From: Chloroflexi bacterium CSP1-4
GTDB taxonomy: Bacteria; Chloroflexota; Limnocylindria; Limnocylindrales; CSP1-4
Length of the DNA: 64,000 nucleotides
Direction of reading: 5' to 3'
Assembly (NCBI GenBank): GCA_001443375.1
Contig: LDXM01000003.1
Location: 76,931-140,930 of the forward strand
The stretch's first letter is position 1; each line of letters opens with the position of its first letter. A program made the translations under genes and the position numbers. The notes under the pieces were generated by a model. The model searched no databases. It saw only the letters and a list, made by a program, of their open reading frames with translations, and was not told where the DNA came from. This document shows positions 7,853 through 31,174 of this stretch, one piece after another.

Positions 7853-7923
7853 CGCAGTCAGGGTGTCGTCCCGAGATCAGACGAAGGAAGTGGAGCGGGA
7901 GACGGGATCCTAACCCGCGACAT
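7853..7923 (-). repeat. Decayed tRNA-Gly 3' fragment, attachment-site-like (copy A)
   Basis: Positions 7891-7923 reproduce the 3' end, acceptor strand and T-arm of tRNA-Gly(CCC) in minus orientation, with ttcga changed to tccta in the T-loop. The preceding ~38 bp (gcagtcagggtgtcgt to gaaggaag) align with the sequence just outside the 3' end of the intact tRNA at 31.1 kb. Homology stops at the anticodon-stem side. It is the most remote member of the array. Confidence 0.55.
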
Positions 7924-7979
7924 CGCCGAGCAGCCGAGGGGCCCGCACGACCGGGCTCACGACGAACGGAGGCACGAAG

Positions 7980-8648
7980 GTGGACAAGGCACTCGTCGAC
8001 GAGGTGTTGGGCGCCGCCGCCCGCGTGGTCGGCAGCGGGGCCATCTCGGCTAACGGGCACGGCAACGTCAGCCTGCGGGTCCCAGGCGCTGAGGAGATGT
8101 ACTTCACGGCTGCCCCGTCGCTGAAGGGGCTCGGGCCGGACGGCGTGGTCCGCGTCGGTCTGGACGGAAGGCTGTTGGAGGGAGCGCTGCCACCGATCCA
8201 GGCCGCCGTGGTGGCGATGCACACGGCGATGTACCAGGACCATCCTGATGTGGGCTGCGTCGTGCACACGCATTCGCCGTATGCCACCGCCTATGCCGTC
8301 GCTAACCGGCCGATCGCCTGCTGGATCGAAGCGCTCGCCATGTTCGGCCTGGCCGACGGCGTCCCGGTCGCTGGGTACGGGCCGCGGGGTTCCGAGCAGG
8401 CGGTCGCCAATATCCGCGCGGCCGTGAAGCCAGGCATCCCTGCTGTGCTGTTGGCCAACCATGGGGTGCTGGTGTTCCACCGCACACCGGAGCTGGCCGT
8501 CCTGGTCGGCGGGGTCGTCGAAGAGGCGGCGCAGGCGGCCATCAACGCACAGGTGCTGGGTGGTCCGGTCGAGATCCCGGGCGACATGCGGGCCGCTGCC
8601 CTGCAGCGGGCGATGGTGTTCGACGCCGCAGGGACGATAAACGCCTGA
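7980..8648 (+). CDS. Class II aldolase/adducin-family protein
   Basis: 222 residues, typical of L-fuculose-phosphate/ribulose-phosphate aldolases and related sugar-acid aldolases. The zinc ligands are visible as HTHSPYATAY (two His near residue 93) and NHGVLVF (third His near residue 160), and the N-terminal SANGHGNVSLR matches the phosphate-binding turn. A GGAGG ribosome-binding site precedes the GTG start. It catalyses retro-aldol cleavage of a small phosphorylated sugar or a related decarboxylation; the exact substrate cannot be set without pathway neighbours, and none are present. It begins 57 bp after the tRNA-derived fragment at 7.9 kb, so it may be cargo of that site. Confidence 0.85.
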   Translation: MDKALVDEVLGAAARVVGSGAISANGHGNVSLRVPGAEEMYFTAAPSLKGLGPDGVVRVGLDGRLLEGALPPIQAAVVAMHTAMYQDHPDVGCVVHTHSPYATAYAVANRPIACWIEALAMFGLADGVPVAGYGPRGSEQAVANIRAAVKPGIPAVLLANHGVLVFHRTPELAVLVGGVVEEAAQAAINAQVLGGPVEIPGDMRAAALQRAMVFDAAGTINA

Positions 8649-8802
8649 GGGTCCTCTCCGACCCGACGCGGTGTCCGTTCGGCGAGTGCCATCGTCGTGG
8701 TTCCTTCGGCCGTATGCCGCCGGTTCTCACCGGGGCCTTCGGCCTCGTGACGCTACTCTGCAGCAGAGGCCGTCGCCGGTGCGACCATGAGGACGGCCTC
8801 GC

Positions 8803-9579
8803 TCACAGCATGCCCTGCCGCGCCTGCAGGTCGATGGGCTGGACGATGACCCACATCCCGCTCAGGACGCCCGACCAGCTGCCCCGGCGTGGCACGAAGG
8901 CTTGGCCGAGCCTGGCCGGCGTGAGGCTCGAGCCCGGCGCCGGGCTGCGGCCCCAGGTCGTGCTATCGAGCGGGTACAGCGGGTCGAGGACGATGGCGTG
9001 GGTGACGCGGAAGTCGTCGGTCACGGCCGGGTCCGCCGTGGCCCGGAAGCCGCTCATGACCCAGGCGTGGCGGCCGCCCCAGGCGAGCAGGCCGACCGGC
9101 CGGCCCGTGCGGCGCATCGAGCGGGCGGCGGCGTACAGGGCGTCGGCCAGGCTCGGGTAGCCCACGACCGCGTAGGGTCCCTGATCCAACCGGTTCAGGC
9201 CGGCCGCCCAGCCCTGCACGGACGCGCCGCGCCGGGGTGGCCGATCCGGCGGCCGGGGCGGGCCCAGCTGGCGGGCCAGCTGCCAGAGCCGGCGCTGCGT
9301 GGCGGCGCTGCGGTCGTCCCGGGCCGAGACGAGGTTGATCATCATCTGCATGCTGGCGCCGACGCACTGCACGAGGTTCGTCTGCGCCACGAAATCGCCC
9401 GGTCGGTAGAGGTCGAACTCGTAGACCCGTGCCGCCTGGACCGGCTGGGGGCCGCCGGCGAGGGCCGACCCCAGGCCGAGGACGAAGGCCAGGCCGATGG
9501 CGCCCAGGTCGATGCGGCGACGGCCGGTCGGGCTCATCCGCTGAACCCATCGCGCAGCCAAGTGCTCGGGGAACGCCAT
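8803..9579 (-). CDS. Exported C39-like cysteine-peptidase-fold protein
   Basis: 258 residues from the ATG at 9579, which is supported by a TATCAT box ending 9 nt upstream; an internal ATG at 9537 is the alternative. A signal peptide is visible (RRRIDLGAIGLAFVLGLG then SALA). The mature part starts with a D-x-Y-RPGDFVAQTNLVQCVGAS segment, in which the Cys sits in the context of the C39-like nucleophile (QCVGASMQMMIN), followed by GGRHAWVMSGF and VTHAIVLDPLY, which supply candidate His and Asp. Such proteins are probably secreted peptidases or peptidase-like binding proteins. No substrate can be named. Confidence 0.6.
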   Translation of the reverse strand: MAFPEHLAARWVQRMSPTGRRRIDLGAIGLAFVLGLGSALAGGPQPVQAARVYEFDLYRPGDFVAQTNLVQCVGASMQMMINLVSARDDRSAATQRRLWQLARQLGPPRPPDRPPRRGASVQGWAAGLNRLDQGPYAVVGYPSLADALYAAARSMRRTGRPVGLLAWGGRHAWVMSGFRATADPAVTDDFRVTHAIVLDPLYPLDSTTWGRSPAPGSSLTPARLGQAFVPRRGSWSGVLSGMWVIVQPIDLQARQGML

Positions 9580-9587
9580 GGTTGCGC

Positions 9588-9593
9588 ATGATA
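9588..9593 (-). promoter_or_regulatory. -10 box of exported C39-like gene
   Basis: TATCAT on the minus strand lies 8 nt before the ATG at 9579. That spacing would put transcription start at or next to the start codon, as at several other genes in this window. No convincing -35 is visible. Confidence 0.4.
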
Positions 9594-9676
9594 CGCACAA
9601 CCGCCCGATCCGGACCACGGGCGGGCGACCGCAGCAACGGGTCGCGAGAGGCGTCGCGCCGTGCGCCCATCGCAGG

Positions 9677-9704
9677 GAGGCCGCCCGCCGAAGCGAGCGG
9701 CCTC
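9677..9704 (-). terminator. UUCG-tetraloop hairpin terminator
   Basis: On the minus strand the RNA folds as a 12-bp stem (one G-U pair) closed by a UUCG tetraloop, 30 nt after the stop codon of the gene at 9734-10093. No U-tract follows, so it would be a hairpin-only terminator or a 3' stabiliser. Confidence 0.55.
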
Positions 9705-9733
9705 TCGGTGCGAGCCGGAGACGCGGTCTCCGG

Positions 9734-10093
9734 TTACCTGGCCAGTACGGCCACCGGGTCCGAGTCCACGACAAGTTCGGACGGCGACCCGGTCATCGGC
9801 GCGGTCAGGTCGACGCCGTGGATGGCCTGCACGCGCTCGAGGAACCAGGTGGTGAACGCGTCCGTGGCGCTCATCATCTGCCCGAACGCCTGCCCCGGAT
9901 CGTCGCCTTCGAGCGTCACGATCACGAGGTCACCCATGGGGGTCGGCTGCAGGAACGTTCGCTCGTGGACGCCGGCCCGTCGTCGGGAGTCGGCGAACTC
10001 CTGGCGACGCGGGCCGTTCAGCTCCTCCATCCACGTGCGCCACTCAGCGGTTTTTCCGGGGAGGATCGGGAACGCGACTGCCATCAACGGCAT
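9734..10093 (-). CDS. Small ferredoxin-like-fold (dimeric alpha/beta barrel) protein
   Basis: 119 residues. The start at 10093 is fixed by a GGAGG ribosome-binding site 5 nt upstream. The pattern of VAFPILPGKTAEWRTWMEEL, helix, GVHERTFLQPTPMGDLVIVT, helix, FTTWFLERV resembles the small dimeric barrel families (DUF6176 or antibiotic-biosynthesis-monooxygenase-like) often found singly in soil bacteria. No catalytic residue can be assigned. It is followed by a strong hairpin at 9677-9704 and preceded by the decayed attachment site at 10.3 kb. Confidence 0.6.
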   Translation of the reverse strand: MPLMAVAFPILPGKTAEWRTWMEELNGPRRQEFADSRRRAGVHERTFLQPTPMGDLVIVTLEGDDPGQAFGQMMSATDAFTTWFLERVQAIHGVDLTAPMTGSPSELVVDSDPVAVLAR

Positions 10094-10320
10094 GGGAACC
10101 TCCAGGAGCACCTGCGTGCCCGGCGACGGAAGGGTCGGACTCGCCATTGGCCCTGCGCGACGGTCTAGGCGACCGTGTGGGGACGCCGCGCTGGTGGGAA
10201 CCCGCGAGCTCCCGTGCCTCCCTCTCGAGGAGCGGAGTATGGGCGCTCCGGCGCCGAATAGATAGGGGACCCGCGTCGGGTTCGACGGGTCGTACCGCAC
10301 GATCACCTCGACCCCGGGCC
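10094..10320. other. Gene-free stretch with a DUF3592-like remnant
   Basis: On the minus strand from about 10327 to 10255 the sequence reads FRPGVEVIVRYDPSNPTRV, which matches the conserved C-terminal strand pair of DUF3592 membrane-associated proteins. No start or membrane segments remain. The remnant begins exactly at the edge of the tRNA-derived site at 10321-10411, so the rest of the gene was probably lost by recombination there. Nothing else is recognisable. Confidence 0.4.
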
Positions 10321-10411
10321 TGAACTGCTGTGGAAGTCCTGACCTCGTGGGCGCTGTAGCGTGAGCGCGGAAGGACAAGCGAATCGGGCGCAGTTAGAGT
10401 GTCGTGACGGG
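10321..10411 (-). repeat. tRNA-Gly attachment-site repeat (copy B, arm only)
   Basis: From 10331 the sequence follows the same ~75 bp arm found next to the tRNA 3' halves at 23.3, 25.5, 28.5 and 30.1 kb (tcctgacctcg, agcg, gtagcgtgagcg, cagttagagtgtcgt, in order). Only a few core bases of the tRNA part (ctgctgtggaag) are left; beyond them lies the DUF3592-like remnant. The hydrolase gene begins about 160 bp beyond the arm. Confidence 0.65.
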
Positions 10412-10571
10412 CGCGCTTCGACGACGCCCATGGCCAGCGGCGGGACCCGGACCGGCTCGCCACGGGTGGTCCCAACTGGTCCGGGCACCGCTCCACGACA
10501 TGGCAACCGCGCCGGCCCGTGGCGGGGACGAGGTCGGTGTCCTGAGCCCGCGATCTTCGGCAGGGGGCGAA

Positions 10572-23299: not shown

Positions 23300-23420
23300 T
23301 GGAGCGGGAGACGGGATTCGAACCCGCGACATTCTGCTTGGGAAGTCCTGACCTCGCGAGCGTTGTAGCATGAGCGTGGAAGGGCGAGCGAATCACCGGT
23401 AGTTATGGTGTCGTAACGGG
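23300..23420 (-). repeat. tRNA-Gly 3' half plus arm, attachment-site-like (copy C)
   Basis: Positions 23300-23345 are identical to the 3' half of the intact tRNA-Gly(CCC), from CCA through acceptor strand, T-arm, variable loop and 3' anticodon stem. At the anticodon loop it switches to the ~75 bp arm shared with copies B, D, E and F (tcctgacctcg to tagttatggtgtcg). No 5' half exists, so no tRNA can be made. This is the best preserved core of the array after the tRNA itself. Confidence 0.8.
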
Positions 23421-23613
23421 CCCGGGCGCGCCGGGACAGATCGGCGCGGACCGCGTCTGCGGTGATCGTGGCTGCGACCGATGGCCGACGGCTGATCCCC
23501 GGCGCGCCGACCAGGACCCTGATCCCACCGCCGGACCGGCCACGTACGGCGACTGACGCCACCTGCAGGCTCTGCCGTCGCCGGGGTCCTCGACCGCCAG
23601 GGCGTGTCAGGCC

Positions 23614-23619
23614 TAGAAT
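23614..23619 (+). promoter_or_regulatory. -10 box of the cpaF-like gene
   Basis: TAGAAT lies 43 nt upstream of the ATG at 23663; the matching -35 is weak. A GGGAGG ribosome-binding site precedes the ATG, so this gene has a normal leader, unlike many of its neighbours. Confidence 0.35.
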
Positions 23620-23662
23620 CCCGCGGTACGGACCAAAGCACGATTCCTGGGAGGCGTAGGTC

Positions 23663-25456
23663 ATGTCCCTCCTCCGGCGCTTCGAGCAGGCGCGCACGGG
23701 AATCGCCGCTCAGCACGACGGCACCGCGACGCCGGTCCTGCGTCCGAGTTCGTCCTCCACCCACATCCTGGCCCGTGAGGACCTGCTCCACGACATCCGG
23801 CTCCGCCTGCAGGGCGAGATCGGGAACGTCTCCACCTCGCTGCTCGACTCATCGGCGACCGACGTCCAGGGCACGATCGAGGGGGTCGTGGACCGGTTCC
23901 TCCGGGCGAACGACTTCGCCCTCACCGGGGCCGAACGCCAGCACCTGGTGGACGAGCTCGTAGGGGAGGTCGAGGGCCTCGGGCCACTGGAACCGCTTCT
24001 CCACGACGGCTCGATCACGGAAATCATGGTCAACGGCCCGAACCAGATCTACATCGAGCGGGGCGGGAAGCTCGAGCGCGTCCCGCAGACCTTCCTGAAC
24101 AACGAGCACGTGCTCCGGATCATCAACCGGATCGTCAGCCCGCTTGGCCGCCGGATCGACATGGCCAGCCCGCGGGTCGATGCCCGCCTGGCCGACGGTT
24201 CGCGGGTCAACGCGATCATCCCGCCCCTGTCCCTGGTCGGGCCGACGATCACCATCCGGAAGTTCTCCACCTCGCCGTACACCGTGGACGACCTCGTCCG
24301 GTTCGGGACGGCCACCTCGGAGATGTTCGAGTTCCTGCGCGCGTGCGTCGAAGCCCGCCTGAACGTCTTCGTCTCGGGCGGCACCGGCTCGGGCAAGACG
24401 ACGACCCTCAACGTGATCTCGAGGTTCATTCCCGAGGAGGAGCGGATCATCACGATCGAGGATGCCGCCGAGCTGCAGCTCAACCAAGAGCACGTCATCA
24501 CGCTCGAGGCACGGCCGCCCAACATCGAGGGCCTTGGCGAGATCACGATCCGTGAACTGCTGCGCAACGCCCTGCACATGCGCCCGGACCGGATCGTCGT
24601 CGGTGAGTGCCGCTCGGGCGAGGCCCTCGACATGATCCAGGCGATGACGATCGGTCAAGACGGGTCGATGTCCACCGGGCACGCGAACAGCCCGCCGGAC
24701 ATGCTCCGCCGTCTGGAGACGATGGTGCTCATGGCCGGCATGGACCTGCCGCTGCTCTCGATCCGGGAGCAGATCGCGTCCGCGGTCGACCTGATCGTCC
24801 ATACCGCCCGCCTCAAGGACGGCTCCCGGAAGATCGTCAGGATCACGGAAGTGTTCGGGATCGAGGACGAGAAGATCTTGACCCAGGACATCTTCGAGTT
24901 CGAGCAGACGGGCGTCCGCGATAAACGGATCGAAGGCGTCCTCAAGCCAACCGGCATCCGGCCGACCTTCATGGGCCGGTTCCCGGCGCGCGGGATCCAG
25001 CTCCCGCCGGGCGAGTTCGGGATCCCGCCCGAGGACCCCGAGAAGCCGTCCCGCCAGCCGAAGGGACGCTGGACCACGGGCGAGGCGCCGCTGGCCGACG
25101 CCTCCCGCCTGGTCGTCGGGCACGGTCGTGCGGTCAAGGCCGGAGGGATGATCTACATCACCTCGATGGGCCCGGTCGATCCCGAGACGGGGCGCGCCAT
25201 CCCGGGCGGCATCAAGGAGCACGCCCACCAGTGCCTGCGCAACCTGCAGGCGAAGCTGGAGGCGGAGGGAAGCTCGCTGGAGAAGATCGTCTGGGCGAGC
25301 TGGTCCCTGCGCGATCCGGCCGAGTTCGAGACGTTCAACGAGGAGTGGGTGCGCTGGTTCCCGGGCGACACCCCGGTCGGCCAGGGCACGCTGATGCCCT
25401 CACTCCAGCGCCGGGCCGGCTTCCGGGTCTCGATCGGGGTGATCGCCGAGGCCTAG
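23663..25456 (+). CDS. CpaF/TadA-type secretion ATPase fused to a RidA-like domain
   Basis: 597 residues in one uninterrupted frame. Residues 1-455 are a typical CpaF/TadA ATPase of type II/IV-pilus (Tad) systems: N-terminal domain, Walker A GGTGSGKTTT at 239-248, the VVGECRSGEALDM box and MSTGHANSP. Normal CpaF proteins end near LPPGEFG (residue 453). Here a 20-residue Pro/Lys linker leads to residues 475-597, which have the RidA/YjgF/UK114 fold pattern (GGMIYITSMGPVDPETG, HAHQCLRNLQAKLEAEGSSL). The Arg used by active RidA enzymes to bind substrate carboxylate is missing (PVGQGTLMP). No other Tad genes are present. It fills the interval between attachment-site copies C and D. Confidence 0.85.
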   Translation: MSLLRRFEQARTGIAAQHDGTATPVLRPSSSSTHILAREDLLHDIRLRLQGEIGNVSTSLLDSSATDVQGTIEGVVDRFLRANDFALTGAERQHLVDELVGEVEGLGPLEPLLHDGSITEIMVNGPNQIYIERGGKLERVPQTFLNNEHVLRIINRIVSPLGRRIDMASPRVDARLADGSRVNAIIPPLSLVGPTITIRKFSTSPYTVDDLVRFGTATSEMFEFLRACVEARLNVFVSGGTGSGKTTTLNVISRFIPEEERIITIEDAAELQLNQEHVITLEARPPNIEGLGEITIRELLRNALHMRPDRIVVGECRSGEALDMIQAMTIGQDGSMSTGHANSPPDMLRRLETMVLMAGMDLPLLSIREQIASAVDLIVHTARLKDGSRKIVRITEVFGIEDEKILTQDIFEFEQTGVRDKRIEGVLKPTGIRPTFMGRFPARGIQLPPGEFGIPPEDPEKPSRQPKGRWTTGEAPLADASRLVVGHGRAVKAGGMIYITSMGPVDPETGRAIPGGIKEHAHQCLRNLQAKLEAEGSSLEKIVWASWSLRDPAEFETFNEEWVRWFPGDTPVGQGTLMPSLQRRAGFRVSIGVIAEA

Positions 25457-25467
25457 CGACCGAGCAG

Positions 25468-25502
25468 CCCAGGCTCGACCGGTCGGGCGTCGGGAGCCTG
25501 GG
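25468..25502 (+). terminator. Hairpin after the CpaF-RidA gene
   Basis: cccaggctc and gagcctggg form a perfect 9-bp stem with a 17-nt loop, 12 nt after the stop codon. No T-tract follows. Confidence 0.4.
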
Positions 25503-25512
25503 GCCAAGGGAG

Positions 25513-25626
25513 TGGAGCGGGAGACGGGAAACGAACCCGCGACATTCTGCTTGGGAAGTCCCGAGCTCGCTAGCACCGTGGCGTGAGCGTGGAGGGCGAG
25601 CGTAACGGGCGTAGTTAGGGTGTCGC
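25513..25626 (-). repeat. tRNA-Gly 3' half plus arm, attachment-site-like (copy D)
   Basis: Positions 25513-25558 match the 3' half of tRNA-Gly(CCC) with only the T-loop changed (ttcga to aacga). At the anticodon loop the sequence continues into the arm (cccgagctcgc, gcgtgagcgtggag, gtagttagggtgtcg). It follows the CpaF-RidA gene and precedes the ArsR promoter. Confidence 0.78.
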
Positions 25627-25709
25627 CGCGAGCGCGGCCCGTGGCTTGGGCCGCGACCGGCCGTCCCGACTGCCGGCGGGCGGCGGATGGCGGCTCGGTG
25701 CCCGTTCGC

Positions 25710-25737
25710 TTGACAAGCCGATGGATGAGGCTATATT
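25710..25737 (+). promoter_or_regulatory. Strong sigma70-type promoter of arsR-like operon
   Basis: TTGACA (25710-25715), 16-nt spacer, TATATT (25732-25737). It is nearly consensus and the most AT-rich stretch nearby. Transcription would start near 25744, within the operator described next. Confidence 0.65.
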
Positions 25738-25738
25738 C

Positions 25739-25750
25739 AACCTAATGGTT
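25739..25750. promoter_or_regulatory. AACC-N4-GGTT dyad, probable ArsR operator
   Basis: An inverted repeat AACC-taat-GGTT lies immediately after the -10 box and over the expected transcription start, where a repressor would block initiation. Similar AACC/GGTT dyads are seen before ArsR-SRPBCC gene pairs; this is recalled rather than looked up. Confidence 0.5.
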
Positions 25751-25760
25751 ACGAAACCGG

Positions 25761-26192
25761 ATGGTGCAATACATAGCGACGATGAGTGCTTCTGCCGATC
25801 CCCTGAGTGCGACGTTCTCGGCGCTGGCTGATCCGACGCGACGGGCGATTCTGGCGCGGCTGGTGGACGGTGAGGCGCCGGTGACCGAGCTGGCGGCGCC
25901 GTTCGAGATGAGCATGCCGGCGGTATCGAAGCATCTGAAGGTGCTGGAGCGGGCGGGACTGATCGAGCGAAGCCGTCACGCGCAGTGGCGGCCGTGCCGG
26001 CTGGCGCCCGCGCCGTTGAAGGAGGTGGCGGACTGGGTGGAACGCTACCGCCAGCTCTGGGAAGAACGCCTCGATCGGCTGGACGATTACCTGAGCGAAT
26101 TGCAGCTGGGGGCGTCGACCGATCGCGGGCATGAGGATCGACTGGAAAGACGAGATGGTATCGAGGAGGCGCACGATGGCAGCAGGCGATAG
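25761..26192 (+). CDS. ArsR/SmtB-family repressor
   Basis: 143 residues from ATG 25761 (136 from ATG 25782, which fits the family start MSASADPLSATFSALADPTR better). The winged-helix motif is complete: ALADPTRRAILARLVDGEAP, then EMSMPAVSKHLKVLERAGLI. No metal-binding Cys pair is present, placing it in the metal-independent SdpR-like group that usually pairs with an AHSA1 gene. It overlaps the downstream gene by 17 nt. Autorepression through the dyad at 25739-25750 is likely; what relieves it is unknown. Confidence 0.88.
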   Translation: MVQYIATMSASADPLSATFSALADPTRRAILARLVDGEAPVTELAAPFEMSMPAVSKHLKVLERAGLIERSRHAQWRPCRLAPAPLKEVADWVERYRQLWEERLDRLDDYLSELQLGASTDRGHEDRLERRDGIEEAHDGSRR

Positions 26193-26685
26193 CACGCCGG
26201 TGGGTACGGCGGATGAGGGGGTGGTGATCGAGCGGGTGTTCGACGCTCCTCGTGAGCTGGTGTGGCGGGCATGGACGGAGCCGGAGCATTTCATGCGCTG
26301 GTACGGGCCGGCGGGGATGACGTCGCACGCTTGTGAGATCGATCTGCAGGTGGGCGGGCGCCGCTTGATCGGCATGCAGTCGCCGGACGGGCAGGAGTAC
26401 CACACGACGGGTGTGTATCGGGAGATCGTGCCGCTGGAGCGGTTCGTCGCGACGGAGTCGCCCTCGGATGCGGACGGCAATGCGGTACCGCCGTCGCAAT
26501 ACGGGATGCCCGAGGGGATGTCGATGGAGACGATCGTTACGGTGACCCTCGAGGATCTGGACGGCGGCAGGACGAAGATGACGCTGAACCAGACCGGCTT
26601 CCCGAGCGAGGACTGGGCCGCGGGTGCACGCGGCGGCTGGAACCAGGCGTTCGACAAGCTGGTCGCGGTCTTCGTGGATGCCTGA
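26176..26685 (+). CDS. AHSA1/SRPBCC-domain protein
   Basis: 169 residues; ATG 26176 has a GAGGAGG ribosome-binding site. Typical AHSA1 features are VIERVFDAPRELVWRAWTEP, FMRWYGPAGMT, and LNQTGFPSED before a final helix. These small START-like proteins are nearly always encoded with an ArsR repressor, as here, and are thought to bind hydrophobic ligands or assist folding; no biochemical role is firmly known. It is translated from the same message as the overlapping arsR gene. Confidence 0.88.
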   Translation: MAAGDSTPVGTADEGVVIERVFDAPRELVWRAWTEPEHFMRWYGPAGMTSHACEIDLQVGGRRLIGMQSPDGQEYHTTGVYREIVPLERFVATESPSDADGNAVPPSQYGMPEGMSMETIVTVTLEDLDGGRTKMTLNQTGFPSEDWAAGARGGWNQAFDKLVAVFVDA

Positions 26686-26730
26686 CGGCTCTCCGAGCCC
26701 CCTGTGTCGCCCGAAGCCGGATCGCCCGGT

Positions 26731-27453
26731 CTACTCGGAAACTGCGAACACCACGGCCTCATCCGCCGTCAGCTGACGCCCCTCGGCCCACGCGGACCTG
26801 AGGGCTCCCTCATCGAGCGCCTCGCGCAATCGGAGGATCTCGGCGTCGTACTCCTCGCGTTCGAGCGCGGTCATCGCGGCCTCGGCGACCTCGCGGAGGG
26901 CCTCGGCCGCCCCGAACAGGCGCGCCGCCCGAACGCCGTGTCCCCTGGCCACCGCCAGGAACGCGAACGACTCGAGCTGGTTGGCGACCGCCCCGCGATT
27001 CCCGCTGCGCTGCCAGCCGTGGATCGAGTGGCGATACTCGGCCGCGGCCTCGTCGATCCGGCCGTCACGCCGCAGGGCATGGCCGAGCTCGCTCTGGGCG
27101 GAGAGCTCGAAGCGATGGTCGTCCATCGCGTGGAACTGGGCCTGGGCTTCGCGGAACAATCGCTGTGCATCCACCAGCCGGCCCGCGAGGCTGGCCACGC
27201 GGCCGCGAACCTGGGCGAGATATGCGATGTCCTGTGGGTTGCCCGAACGTTGGGCCGCCTCGCTCGCCCGCTCCAGCCAGCGCTCGGCGGAGGCCGGGTC
27301 GAGTGGGGCCTCGATCATCGCCAAGGACAACTCGATGCGGCCGAGGCGGCCCCAATCCCCGAGATCGGTGACTTCGCTCTCAATCCTGTGTCGATCAACG
27401 ACGTGGATCAGATCGCGATCCGGGTCAGGCTGTCGAACGACATGCAGTACGTT
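26731..27453 (-). pseudogene. C-terminal fragment of a cyclase/LuxR-type ATPase-TPR regulator
   Basis: The frame is open for 241 codons but has a stop at 27454-27456 and no convincing start codon. The sequence is the TPR tail of the large regulators elsewhere in this window and ends with the family-typical AARLFGAAEALREVA, a helix, then LRSAWAEGRQLTADEAV. The N-terminal cyclase and ATPase domains are missing. It lies on the opposite strand to its neighbours and ends 45 bp from the AHSA1 gene, which looks like a fragment carried in by a recombination event. Confidence 0.65.
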
Positions 27454-27511
27454 CTACGGGCGGATCCGATCAAGTAGTGCGCTCCTCCGCTCTCGAGGGC
27501 CCGTCAGGCGT

Positions 27512-27517
27512 GTAAGG
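27512..27517 (+). promoter_or_regulatory. -10 box of the membrane protein gene
   Basis: TAAGGT lies 8 nt before the ATG at 27526, which would give a leaderless transcript. There is no clear -35. Confidence 0.35.
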
Positions 27518-27525
27518 TTCGCCGC

Positions 27526-28353
27526 ATGTCCGCGGCCGCGTCCCCCGCGCCCACCAGGTCGGTGATCCTCGTCCGGATCGTCGACGTGCTGCGCGACATC
27601 GCCCGTGGCGGCCTTGCCGCGGCACTCGCCGGCATCGTCGTCCTCGGCCTCGGCGGACGGGTCGTCATGCGCATCGCCGCGGCCGTCAACCCGGATGCGA
27701 CCGGCCTCCGGACCGAGGCCGGCGAGGTGGTCGGCGTGGTCACTGCCCAGGGCTCGCTGGGACTGCTGGTTTTCGGCGGGCTCGCCAGCGGGATCGTCGC
27801 GGGCATCGTCTGGGTCGTCGTCTCGCCGTGGATCCCGGGGACCGGCCCGCGCCGGTGGCTCCTCGCGATGCTGGTGACCGTCGCGCTCGGGGGCTCCTTC
27901 CTCGTGCAGTCGGGCAACCCTGACTTCGTCATCCTGGGCCCGGACCTGCCGATCGTCGCCATGCTCCTGGGGCTCGTCGCTCTGTTCGGGGCCGCGGTCG
28001 CCTGGTTGGACGAGCGTATAGAGCGGAGGTTGCCCAGACCCGGTGGGAACCGGATCGTCCTGCTGCTGATCTACGGGGCGATCGCGGCCTTCGGGTTCCT
28101 GGCGGTCCCGGTCGCGCTCAGCTTCTACCTCTCGACCAGCGGGTTCGGGAGCGTGAGGCCGGGGCTCACCGGCTGGGCGCTCATCGTGGTTGGCGCGGCG
28201 ACGATGACCTGGTGGGCGGCCCGCATCGCGATGGGGCGATCTGATCGGCCGCCTGCGCTGCTCGCCATCGGCCGGATCGGCCTCGTGGCGGCGGTGCTCC
28301 TCGGCTTCGCCCACCTTGGCCCCGAGGTGGCGAAGATCGTCGCGGGGAGCTGA
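27526..28353 (+). CDS. Polytopic membrane protein of unknown function
   Basis: 275 residues with about six to seven transmembrane segments (GLAAALAGIVVLGLGGRVVM; LLVFGGLASGIVAGIVWVVV; IVAMLLGLVALFGAAVAWL; LIVVGAATMTWW). Similar hypothetical membrane proteins begin with a short cytoplasmic N-terminus and a GGRVVMRIAA segment and are common in soil Actinobacteria and Chloroflexi. No catalytic or transport motif is visible. It is the last gene before attachment-site copy E. Confidence 0.7.
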   Translation: MSAAASPAPTRSVILVRIVDVLRDIARGGLAAALAGIVVLGLGGRVVMRIAAAVNPDATGLRTEAGEVVGVVTAQGSLGLLVFGGLASGIVAGIVWVVVSPWIPGTGPRRWLLAMLVTVALGGSFLVQSGNPDFVILGPDLPIVAMLLGLVALFGAAVAWLDERIERRLPRPGGNRIVLLLIYGAIAAFGFLAVPVALSFYLSTSGFGSVRPGLTGWALIVVGAATMTWWAARIAMGRSDRPPALLAIGRIGLVAAVLLGFAHLGPEVAKIVAGS

Positions 28354-28354
28354 G

Positions 28355-28381
28355 CCGGCGGCAGACGAACGCACCCGCCGG
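28355..28381 (+). terminator. Hairpin after the membrane protein gene
   Basis: ccggcgg and ccgccgg form a perfect 7-bp stem with a 13-nt loop just after the stop codon. No T-tract is present. Confidence 0.35.
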
Positions 28382-28382
28382 G

Positions 28383-28576
28383 GAGCGTTGTGGCACGGCG
28401 TCCTTCAGGCTGGCGAGCCTTCAGGCAGGCAGCCGGGGGCCTTCGTGAGCTCAGAAGGGGAAGTGGAGCGGGAGACGGGATTCGAAACCGCGACATTCTG
28501 CTTGGGAAGTCCCGACCTCGTGAGCGTTGTAGCGTGAGCGTGGAACGGCGAGCGAAGCAGCGATAGTTAGGAGCGG
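28383..28576 (-). repeat. tRNA-Gly 3' half with both arms, attachment-site-like (copy E)
   Basis: Core 28464-28509 matches the tRNA-Gly(CCC) 3' half with one change. The plus-strand right arm (28510-28573) has the shared sequence and contains the 9-mer cgtgagcgt twice (28519-28527 and 28533-28541). On the other side gagcgttgtggcac (28383-28396) lies 81 bp from the core. The same 14-mer lies 91 and 93 bp from the cores of copy F and the intact tRNA. Confidence 0.78.
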
Positions 28577-28693
28577 CCCCGCGCCGGCGATCGCGTTGCC
28601 TTCGAGCGCCTCCTGGAGCGCTGGCTGGAGCCGTCGCTCCGGACGGCCTGCGCGATCATCGGCGACAAGGCCGACGCGCGGGACGCCACGCAG
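28571..28693 (+). pseudogene. ECF sigma-factor region 2 fragment
   Basis: In one frame the sequence reads GDRVAFERLLERWLEPSLRT then ACAIIGDKADARDATQ, the unmistakable start of sigma region 2 in ECF sigma factors. There is no start codon, and after DATQ the similarity ends, so core-binding and DNA-binding parts are absent. It starts exactly at the outer end of attachment-site copy E, which probably truncated it. Confidence 0.6.
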
Positions 28694-28894
28694 AAGGTCA
28701 AGACAGCTGAGGCGGCCTCGTCCGCTCAGGCAACGGGACCGCGTCCCTGCGCCGGCCGAAGTGCCTCGCCCGGGCTCGCAGCTCGGTGACGCTCATACCG
28801 CGTGTAGCATGGTGGCCCTGCAGGCGCTCGCCTGCCGCGGCGAACCTGGTGGAGGGCTGGCGCGGTTGACGTACCTGAAGGCGCGGTCCGGTCG
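28694..28894. other. Short gene-free stretch
   Basis: Between the sigma fragment and the P-loop gene nothing is recognised. A second copy of sequence like cgtgtagcat near 28800 is too short to interpret. Confidence 0.3.
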
Positions 28895-29566
28895 ATGACG
28901 CATGGGGCCACCGAGTCTCGGGCTGGTGACGGGCAGACGGTCGCCGTTCACGCGCATCCCGACGAGGCCGCGACGAAGCGACCGCGGCGCGATCCGATGC
29001 ACACGCTCGCCGGCTGCGAGCGGATCGTTGTCGTCGGCCGGACCGGATCAGGCAAGACAACGCTCGCTCGCGAGCTTGCCGCCGCCCTTCGAGTACCCCA
29101 CGTGGAGCTCGACTCGCTGTACTTCGGCCCGCAGTTCAGCACGGCACCCTTGGCTCTCCTGCGCGAGCGGACGAGCGCTGCGATCGCCGGCGATCGATGG
29201 GTGACCGACGGCAACAAGCGGGCGGTGCGCGACCTGGTCTGGCCCCGGGCTGACACGATCGTCTGGCTCGACTACTCCTTGGGCGTCAGCTTGTGGAGGC
29301 TCGGCAAGAGGGCTCGCTGGCGCACGTCGGAGCTCAGAGCCGAGGCGGCCAGGACCGGCCGGCGCGCCGGGCTACCCAAGCAGCTTCTGGCCGCTGCGAA
29401 AGGGGTCCTCACCGCGCTCCGATCGCACGCGGGCCAGCGCCGCGAGTACAAGCGGCTGTTCGCCGAGCCGGCGAACGAGCATCTCGCGGTGGTGCGCCTC
29501 CAGTCGCCGCGTGCCGCCCGCGAGTGGCTGGCTTGCGTCACCGCGGAGTCCACCTCGGCCTCGTAG
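28895..29566 (+). CDS. P-loop kinase-like protein (FlaR/adenylate-kinase-like)
   Basis: 223 residues from ATG 28895; an internal ATG at 28997 (MHTLAGCERIVVVG) better matches the family start. Walker A is GRTGSGKTTLA, followed by HVELDSLYFGP and DRWVTDGNKR and then VWLDYSL, a pattern shared by small adenylate-kinase-like proteins annotated as DNA topology modulation protein FlaR. A basic helical lid and C-terminal TPR-less tail follow. It presumably phosphorylates a nucleotide or small molecule; the substrate is unknown. It is the only intact gene between attachment-site copies E and F. Confidence 0.75.
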   Translation: MTHGATESRAGDGQTVAVHAHPDEAATKRPRRDPMHTLAGCERIVVVGRTGSGKTTLARELAAALRVPHVELDSLYFGPQFSTAPLALLRERTSAAIAGDRWVTDGNKRAVRDLVWPRADTIVWLDYSLGVSLWRLGKRARWRTSELRAEAARTGRRAGLPKQLLAAAKGVLTALRSHAGQRREYKRLFAEPANEHLAVVRLQSPRAAREWLACVTAESTSAS

Positions 29567-29871
29567 GTGGACGCCCCGAAGCCGCATAGCCGCCGAGCTG
29601 GATCCGCGTGCGAGGGTGATCCTGGCAGGTCGGGCGGATGCCCGCTGGCAGCCGAGGAGCATGCCCGGGCGCTCGTGGAGACGCTTCGCTCGACGCGCCC
29701 GGCGCGGCGGGGCTGACGTCGACCTCGGGCGGCGCGCCACCCAAGGCACGGCCTACGACTGACGGATCGGAGGGTGACCGATCTTGCCCAGATCCGAGGC
29801 TGCGACCCGGGTCCGCCGTGCATCAAAGACCCTTCGTCACGACGGCATCCGCGTCGCGGCAGGTCAGTCGC
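29567..29871. other. Gene-free stretch in the cassette array
   Basis: No supported gene in these 305 bp. Translation in all frames has shadow-like Arg/Pro/Ala composition. It precedes the ~264-bp repeat block that ends at attachment-site copy F. Confidence 0.35.
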
Positions 29872-30135
29872 CTGGCGCGCCCGGAGGGCCCTTGGCCCCC
29901 GACACGAACGCAGCGCAATGGACCGCGTCGCCAGTAGCTCGGGGGTCGTCGCGCGGCAGCTCACGCCCCGTGATCGCGGTCACCGCTGTCGCTGCAGGGC
30001 GAGCGGCCTCGGCTTCCTCTCTCCGCCCGATCGCCCGTCAACCCGAGCGTTGTGGCACTCGCGCGAGGCGATCCTGTACGACCACCGGGACGCCGCACCC
30101 GCAAGCAGAGCGTCGCGCTGAGCACAGAGGGGAGT
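29872..30135 (-). repeat. ~264-bp repeat block adjoining copy F (second arm)
   Basis: This block aligns over its length with 30833-31098, the sequence just outside the 3' end of the intact tRNA-Gly, at roughly 80 % identity by eye. Shared words include ctggcgcgcccggagg, gctcgggggtcgtc, gcggcagctcacgcccc and gagcgttgtggcac (30045-30058). It has no coding potential and is best read as the element-side arm of an attachment site. Confidence 0.75.
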
Positions 30136-30250
30136 TGGGAGTTGGAGACGGGAAACGAACCCGCGACATTCTGCTTGGGAAGTGCTGACCTCGTTAGCGT
30201 AGTAGCACGAGCCCGGAAGCGCGAGCGAAACTCGAGTAGTTAGAGTGTCC
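30136..30250 (-). repeat. tRNA-Gly 3' half plus arm, attachment-site-like (copy F)
   Basis: The core 30136-30182 is the tRNA-Gly(CCC) 3' half with a changed T-loop (aacga) and a slightly altered acceptor strand. It continues into the shared arm (tgctgacctcgttagcg, gagcgaaactcgagtagttagagtgtcc, read in two parts). It is the first tandem copy downstream of the intact tRNA, about 0.96 kb away. Confidence 0.78.
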
Positions 30251-30455
30251 TGATGCGTCATTCTCACCGGGTCTTCGCCGGCCCAGGTCTGGATCGGCCC
30301 GAGTTGTTGACGCCTCGTTGGACAGTCCGGGACGATGACGATCGGCGAGTCCAGGTGCCTTGACGCTGCTCAGGGGCCCCGCCCAGAATCGGGCCCTGCA
30401 CTGGGTCGGCGTCTTGGCCATAGGGCTTCGAGGCGCGCTTCCCGAAGGAGACGGC
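30251..30455. promoter_or_regulatory. Upstream region of the small barrel gene
   Basis: A TTGACG at 30360 and CAGAAT at about 30384 could form a weak promoter. No other feature is visible in these 205 bp. Confidence 0.25.
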
Positions 30456-30722
30456 ATGCCGAGGATAGTGGTTACTGCGGCGGTCAAGGATGTCGAGGCG
30501 TGGCTGAAGTTCAAGCCGGAGCTCATCGCCCAGATGTCCGCCGTCGCGTCGGACGGGACCAGTTATGTCGCGATGGATGGCAGCAACCGCGTCGCCAGCA
30601 CATGGGACGTCCCCGACATGGAGGCCTTCCAGGCGGCCCAGACCGCGGCCTCTGCCGAGATGGCGGAGGCGATGGAGCGGTATGGGATGATCCCGCCTGC
30701 GACGGTCTACATCGAGAAGTAG
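30456..30722 (+). CDS. Small dimeric alpha/beta-barrel protein
   Basis: 88 residues with an AAGGAGA ribosome-binding site. The sequence (MPRIVVTAAVKDVEAWLKFK, later YVAMDGSNRVAS and AMERYGMIPPATVYIEK) belongs to a family of short soil-bacterial proteins of ferredoxin-like fold with no proven role. A candidate for ligand binding or a stress-related monooxygenase fold, but no catalytic residues are evident. It is the only gene in the cassette between copy F and the intact tRNA, a single-gene unit about 0.6 kb long. Confidence 0.75.
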   Translation: MPRIVVTAAVKDVEAWLKFKPELIAQMSAVASDGTSYVAMDGSNRVASTWDVPDMEAFQAAQTAASAEMAEAMERYGMIPPATVYIEK

Positions 30723-30832
30723 CCGGACCCCCGGCCGGTCGCGCGGGTGCGACGACGTGTTCAGGCGACGATCGAGCCGTCACTGAGGACAAGGCCCGGC
30801 GGGCGTCGAAGCCGTTCGTGAGCGTTGTCGTT

Positions 30833-31098
30833 CTGGCGCGCCCGGAGGACTCGGGCCCACGACACCAGCGCAGCGCGCTGGACCGCGCCGTTAGTCGCTC
30901 GGGGGTCGTCACGCGGCAGCTCACGCCCCCGTCATCGCGGTCACCGCGCTCGCTGCGGGGCGAGCGGCCATGGCTTCCACTCTCCGCCCGATCGCCCCTC
31001 AACCTGAGCGTTGTGGCACGCGCGCGGAGCGGATCCTGCACGACCACTGAGATGTCGTGCGCGCAAGCAGAGTGTCGCGCTGAGCACGAAAGAGGAAG
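30833..31098 (-). repeat. ~266-bp repeat block adjoining the intact tRNA-Gly
   Basis: Homologous to 29872-30135. The motif gagcgttgtggcac occurs at 31006-31019, 93 bp from the tRNA 3' end, at almost the same distance as in copy F (91 bp) and copy E (81 bp). An additional gtgagcgttgt lies just outside at 30819-30829. These short repeated words, also present in the opposite arm, resemble arm-type recombinase-binding sites. Confidence 0.75.
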
Positions 31099-31174
31099 TG
31101 GAGCGGGAGACGGGATTCGAACCCGCGACATTCTGCTTGGGAAGCAGACACTCTGCCAGCTGAGTTACTCCCGC
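31099..31174 (-). tRNA. tRNA-Gly (anticodon CCC)
   Basis: 76 nt on the minus strand including an encoded CCA. Acceptor stem GCGGGAG/CTCCCGC, D-stem ACTC/GAGT, anticodon stem TCTGC/GCAGA with loop TTCCCAA (CCC reads GGG codons), and T-arm GCGGG-TTCGAAT-CCCGT. All stems pair. It is the only complete copy; six partial copies of its 3' half lie downstream on the same strand, which marks it as the target of repeated integration. Confidence 0.95.

Follow-up and report, generated by a model that had tools for sequence, protein, structure and literature searches.

Phased arm words beside tRNA-Gly half copies in a Chloroflexota genome: candidate att sites of an integrase-free cassette array

In the window, by which we mean the whole stretch of 64,000 nucleotides analysed here, the 14-mer GAGCGTTGTGGCAC lies beside three tRNA-Gly cores, and an earlier note on this DNA proposed it as a candidate arm-binding site of a phage-type integrase. 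Are such words the arms of recombination sites, and if so, what do these sites join? Our answer, to which we assign a probability of about 0.7, is that the motifs are arm sites of att sites joining small mobile cassettes that are stacked on the 3′ side of tRNA-Gly(CCC), with circular cassettes and a candidate integrase acting in trans.

The tRNA-Gly array and its repeated 14-mer

ARAGORN identified one intact tRNA-Gly(CCC) at 31099..31174 on the minus strand, which is the docking gene of the array (copy D). On the 3′ side of this gene, the 3′ half of the tRNA (anticodon loop through 3′ terminus) is directly repeated four times on the plus strand. Copies A (23300..23345), B (25513..25558), C (28464..28509) and E (30137..30182) show 0, 2, 1 and 5 mismatches to the tRNA in 45 positions. 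In each case, the identity to the true tRNA ends exactly at the anticodon loop, and the 5′ half is replaced by one common right arm of approximately 75 bp (23346..23427 in A, 25559..25640 in B, 28510..28590 in C and 30183..30265 in E, all plus strand). The right arm of copy E carries an AGTTA box at +55. Those of copies A and C contain AGCG words with a period of 14 bp, at +30, +44 and +58 relative to where the 17-bp core word ACATTCTGCTTGGGAAG starts.

Owing to two additional decayed sites starting at 10325 and 7886, the recognisable array covers approximately 23 kb beyond the tRNA 3′ end. The first of these (10325..10416, plus strand) consists of a core and a right arm without a tRNA half and is either decayed or has a core of a non-tRNA kind; the second (7886..7923, plus strand) is a degenerate copy of the tRNA-Gly 3′ half and forms the distal end. 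Copies B (25529-25532) and E (30153-30156) have the T loop change GATTCGAA to GAAACGAA (plus strand) in common, and both mismatches of copy B are located in this loop. The change should break a tRNA, and these two halves would therefore have decayed or never been used. Its occurrence in both copies may reflect independent decay or att sites with a common origin.

The 14-mer is present, letter for letter, at all three positions reported before, in the left arms of copies C (28383..28396), E (30045..30058) and D (31006..31019), each on the plus strand. No further exact copy exists in the 2.59 Mb assembly; from base composition, approximately 0.03 exact copies would be expected genome-wide, compared with the three found. 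With up to three mismatches allowed, 10 matches were detected in the whole window versus 9.8 expected, i.e. there is no enrichment. The left motif is missing from copies A and B. In the other three, it starts 81 bp (copy C), 92 bp (copy E) and 93 bp (copy D) from the tRNA 3′ end; the distances given earlier for C and D were right, while that of E had been put at 91 bp. Contrary to the constant spacing described earlier, the distance varies within the window, since 81 bp stands against 92–93 bp. The close variants of the motif described on the right of the core were also found, together with the 9 bp direct repeat. The left arm of copy E (29894..30182, plus strand) is a diverged duplicate of 30854-31144, the left arm of copy D, over approximately 280–310 bp with 80–89% identity. 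Because both lie within this duplicated arm, the motifs at 30045 and 31006 are not independent of each other, and independent support for the motif comes from the sites of other genomes.

Arm words at sites across the class

The composite site also occurs in related genomes on the 3′ side of intact tRNA-Gly. For the site search we used R1, a sequence-only model of the right arm, which at E ≤ 0.01 gave matches in 80 of the 177 class genomes, a number in which weak matches may include chance hits. Arrays of two to six cassettes were found at tRNA-Gly (TCC and CCC), tRNA-Arg (TCT) and tRNA-Thr (CGT), with six 3′-half copies at the tRNA-Gly(TCC) of G082:C26. Wherever the intact tRNA falls on the fetched stretch, the array is located on its 3′ side. 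An intact tRNA is accompanied by fragments in direct orientation on the correct side, as in tRNA-targeted elements. At three loci (L291 in G112, L241 and L289 in G158), 5′-half copies lie 5′ of the tRNA and 3′-half copies lie 3′ of it. Half copies on both sides of one tRNA point to insertions in both senses at one anticodon loop.

A site was also seen in an IMG/VR contig (L337:7250-7348, IMGVR_UViG_3300046505_000116), where it adjoins genes for a D5-like primase, a DNA methyltransferase/ParB and a small terminase. This context resembles a phage satellite or a prophage end and gives a hint that the site also serves phage satellites.

The left flank provides a fair test of the arm idea because it was not used in finding the sites. 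At 89 sites, including those of the window, we searched the 200 bp next to the tRNA 3′ end for GCGYTGTRGC with at most one mismatch. The motif was present at 20 of these sites, compared with 6.9% of background segments of 200 bp taken nearby (binomial P = 2 × 10−6). In the 20 cases the distance to the tRNA 3′ end was only ever 57, 70–71 (13 of 20), 81–84, 94 or 104 bp, with steps near 12 bp. Free drift of the motif, which the earlier note had named as the observation that would speak against arms, is thus absent from the 89 sites. The motif of copy C belongs to the 70 bp class, the commonest distance in the relatives, and that of copy D to the 82 bp class. The 13 sites at 70–71 bp, many of them from one genus, are 83% identical in the motif but only 37% identical in the spacer; with spacers this different, their agreement is not simply the result of recent copying. 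Many sites have GGCTGAGTGTCGTGCCAAGCACGAAA as a second left box directly adjoining the 3′ end of the tRNA. In the right arm, the distance between core and AGTTA box is 54–56 bp for 41 of 47 3′-type sites and 51–55 bp for most 5′-type sites. This count is partly circular, because a model of the right arm had served to find the sites. Conserved arm words are thus repeated on both sides of the core with phased spacing, as in lambda-type att sites. The P-arm/core/P′-arm anatomy proposed for the window holds in outline across genomes; that a recombinase binds these words is what we infer from it.

Cassettes between the sites and candidate recombinases

The sites of the window are the junctions of a cassette array, and its cassettes recur in other genomes. 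The intervals between copies A and D measure 1.0–3.0 kb and contain unrelated, ordinary genes. All are given here on the plus strand. Cassette E–D (30183..31143, 962 bp) holds a single ORF without Pfam match (30360-30722), and cassette C–E (28510..30181, 1673 bp) an ORF resembling P-loop NTPases/kinases (28895-29566). Cassette B–C (25559..28508, 2951 bp) comprises an AHSA1-like gene (26131-26685), a TPR-like gene on the minus strand (26731-27330) and an unmatched ORF (27526-28353). Cassette A–B (23346..25557, 2213 bp) encodes a T2SSE ATPase with an L-PSP/RidA domain (23663-25456), and the distal cassette (7936..10336, 2400 bp) includes a class II aldolase-like gene (7980-8648). None of the window cassettes contains an integrase, and PF00589 has no match in or near the array. 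As expected of elements that are cis-mobilisable by accretion, the cassettes are flanked by att sites, arranged in tandem and devoid of integration or transfer genes.

Over 65 intervals in genomes of the class, cassette size ranged from 0.55 to 7.9 kb (median 2.2 kb). Many intervals consist of a single predicted gene, and an orientation bias is absent. The cargo of the class arrays is diverse (MFS transporters, cyclases, TetR, peptidases, MTHFR and others). We also considered defence islands as cargo; PADLOC matches were scattered, and the Pfam matches were to ordinary metabolic, transport and regulatory genes, so this idea was rejected.

Single cassettes are shared between arrays. Cassettes of G091 and G096 are 94% identical over 1406 bp from base 1, G082 has one cassette of approximately 2.7 kb in its Gly-TCC array and again in its Gly-CCC array (83–85% identity), and the distal cassette of the window matches a cassette in the G014 array (82% over 683 bp). 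Further single-cassette sharing was detected for G082/G095, G084/G095 and G028/G082. The ends of the shared cassettes lie close to the sites.

The cassette A–B gene joins a type II/IV secretion ATPase and an L-PSP/RidA-like domain in one frame (window:23663-25456). Full-length relatives with 68–73% identity in other Chloroflexota MAGs suggest a genuine fusion. None of its homologues in other genomes was located between such sites in the five loci examined.

A candidate enzyme was found outside the window. In G028, a tyrosine integrase of 359 amino acids, encoded at L138:18839-19918, adjoins tRNA-Gly, and relatives of it at E ≤ 1e-30 are present in 51 of 177 genomes of the class. Counted over 40 fetched loci plus G002 and G028, members of this family lie just 5′ of a tRNA and divergent from it in 33 cases and just 3′ of it in six, at tRNAs with 12 anticodons. 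Several of the 5′-side integrase elements are bounded by tRNA 5′-half copies broken near the anticodon loop; the nearest such copy lies approximately 2.5–3.4 kb from the tRNA, and the bounded elements measure approximately 2–3.5 kb. In their arms, GCGCTGTGGC..GAGCGTG and GAGTTATCCGCTGT stand at the positions that the words occupy in the window, and the integrase-bearing elements on the 5′ side and the integrase-less cassettes on the 3′ side therefore belong to one att family. Sites occur in 34 of 51 integrase-positive genomes versus 46 of 126 others (Fisher P = 4 × 10−4, uncorrected for kinship). The array-rich G082 and G097 are among the genomes without a strong match to the family, and in G057 the only two PF00589 matches are Xer-like by score.

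On the 3′ side, G085 carries an element of 3.3 kb with an integrase. A broken second integrase was noticed in G028 (L138:17684-18603) just 3′ of tRNA-Gly, in the first interval, in addition to the intact one on the 5′ side.

In Pfam, five candidate integrases of relatives show only a SAM-like (core-binding) and a catalytic domain; the N-terminal arm-binding domain of lambda-type enzymes is absent from all five. For the one integrase compared, the nearest solved structure is XerD. Because the candidates lack an arm-binding domain, the 'phage-type' of the earlier note is doubtful in the lambda sense. Nor does the genome of the window (G000; assembly 92% complete) contain a member of the G028-type family. 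The assembly encodes two PF00589 proteins and one PF00239 protein, all on other contigs. Neighbourhood and sequence identify the PF00589 pair as a probable XerC, adjoining a topA-like gene, and a probable XerD-like protein. Absence of the enzyme suggests that the array is inactive, that the enzyme is encoded in missing sequence or that it is supplied by a passing element.

Proposed mechanism, alternatives and known systems

In the mechanism that we propose, a circular cassette would comprise the right arm, the anticodon-loop core, a tRNA 3′ half of its own, the left arm and, as a rule, a single gene or a small number of them. It would be inserted by recombination within the anticodon loop of the intact tRNA, which would be rebuilt with the incoming 3′ half; the 3′ half of 31099..31174 would then end the newest cassette. 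Older cassettes would be pushed outward, and tandem copies of the tRNA 3′ half would remain as the process was repeated over time. The catalyst would act in trans, and the tRNA-adjacent tyrosine integrases found across the class are the best candidate. Neither a circular form nor an empty site was seen. In the window's genome, the system probably either no longer operates or depends on an enzyme that the assembly lacks.

The cassettes might instead be immobile remnants, left after islands with integrases had accreted in tandem at one tRNA and the integrases had been deleted. Integrases do occur on elements of this att family and on the 3′-side element of G085; an integrase lies broken beside the tRNA in the first interval of G028, and some sites have decayed. 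We nevertheless consider this reading unlikely. Many cassettes are smaller than 1.7 kb and mostly consist of a single gene, and for several pairs the same compact units recur across genomes and arrays with their ends near the sites, which independent deletion would not explain.

It is much less probable that the sites are att sites of satellite phages or prophages and that phages using the same site package or move the cassettes. The IMG/VR contig L337 combines a degenerate tRNA-Gly half with a full right arm, but it is one contig alone, and no phage-family match was noticed for the window cassettes. A search of a plasmid collection yielded no match.

Homologous recombination near the tRNA, i.e. 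tandem duplication and gene conversion without site-specific recombination, would account for the duplicated left arms of E and D (80–89% identity). As an explanation of the array it is highly improbable, for the intervening genes are unrelated, every copy breaks exactly at the anticodon loop beside an arm that is not tRNA, the site recurs throughout the class and at other tRNA isotypes, and site-specific junctions common to different genera were observed. A true integron, or a CALIN with single-stranded attC hairpins, would fit the sharing and the arraying of mostly single-gene cassettes without an integrase inside, but it can hardly be the case here, given that the sites folded as single DNA strands no better than shuffles (z −0.9 to +2.3) with a weak consensus fold, that the core is a tRNA anticodon loop, that no integron integrase was noticed next to the arrays, that no tyrosine recombinase lies beside the window array and that the tRNA-adjacent integrases of relatives are Xer-like in domains and nearest structure.

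Mobile cassettes joined by arm-bearing att sites can be compared with several described systems. In Dehalococcoides, also of the Chloroflexota, ssrA islands are arranged in tandem downstream of the RNA gene, with 3′-end direct repeats and an adjacent conserved motif; they target the tmRNA at the T loop with a 20 bp repeat and a serine recombinase, DsiB, and many contain a six-gene module, while some lack an integration module and were read as cis-mobilisable (PMC3146451). Our arrays resemble them in the stacking at an RNA gene, the 3′-end repeats and the conserved neighbouring motif, but differ in the tRNA anticodon loop as target, a repeat of approximately 45 bp, two-sided arms and cassettes of mostly single genes without an integrase. 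The combination of a tmRNA target and a CcrB-like serine recombinase was not found in the window's genome, where the target is tRNA-Gly and the sole PF00239 match lies on another contig.

The tRNA islands compiled by Islander share with the arrays the restoration of the tRNA by an element fragment, the fragment orientation, the anticodon-loop crossover (class A) and the excess of 3′ over 5′ fragments. To be listed by Islander, an island needs an integrase and a length of at least 2 kb, and a tandem array is accepted only if each member has an integrase of its own; in 2168 genomes it listed only four arrays of three or more, and the main size peak was at 13.6 kb (PMC4383910). In the window array no element encloses an integrase. 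Since integrase and 2 kb are demanded, arrays of the window type would be filtered out, and the system is probably invisible to island finders of this kind (PMC4383910).

Integrons and CALINs agree with the arrays in small, mostly single-gene cassettes, a fixed docking site, an integrase outside the cassettes and sharing between arrays; unlike integrons, the arrays dock at a tRNA gene, have two-sided arms and non-uniform gene orientation, and lack an attC hairpin. Simple tyrosine recombinases are those without an arm-binding domain, and the candidate integrases are like these Xer-like enzymes in having core-binding SAM-like and catalytic domains only, with XerD as nearest structure (PMC8138268). 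Unlike the dif sites of Xer, the sites described here lie at tRNA anticodon loops and have long conserved arms.

In the literature searched, whose scope left out preprints and most subscription journals, this type of array is undescribed, and the combination of integrase-free minimal cassettes, phased arms, several tRNA isotypes and single-cassette sharing was not found there. On the best reading, tRNA-targeted integration here takes a new, integron-like form, with minimal cassettes that depend on an integrase elsewhere. A broader proposal, which we put forward as tentative, is that the sites form a class-wide platform for gene capture, an integron in function but of separate evolution, with tRNA genes as acquisition sites, Xer-like integrases beside tRNAs acting in trans and double-stranded arm-bearing sites by which cassettes are shuffled within and between genomes. 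Gene cassettes with a reserved docking site are regarded as the hallmark of integrons; a second such design on tRNA genes, if true, would broaden cassette-style capture and help to account for the gain of accessory genes by uncultured Chloroflexota. It would also raise the question of how long phased arm sites are used by recombinases without a recognisable arm-binding domain. The arms may be occupied by an accessory protein; alternatively, the integrase may bind them directly, as it does at the attI repeats of integrons.

A second family of tyrosine recombinases (L312-L327, e.g. L321:6985-7917) comprises proteins of 311–325 amino acids that are 68–93% identical between genomes, with several copies in many array-bearing genomes. 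Examined as a possible trans-acting enzyme, these proteins are not found beside tRNAs, and the right-arm model gave near-zero matches alongside them. Their conservation stops near the limits of the gene, as though the gene moved on its own.
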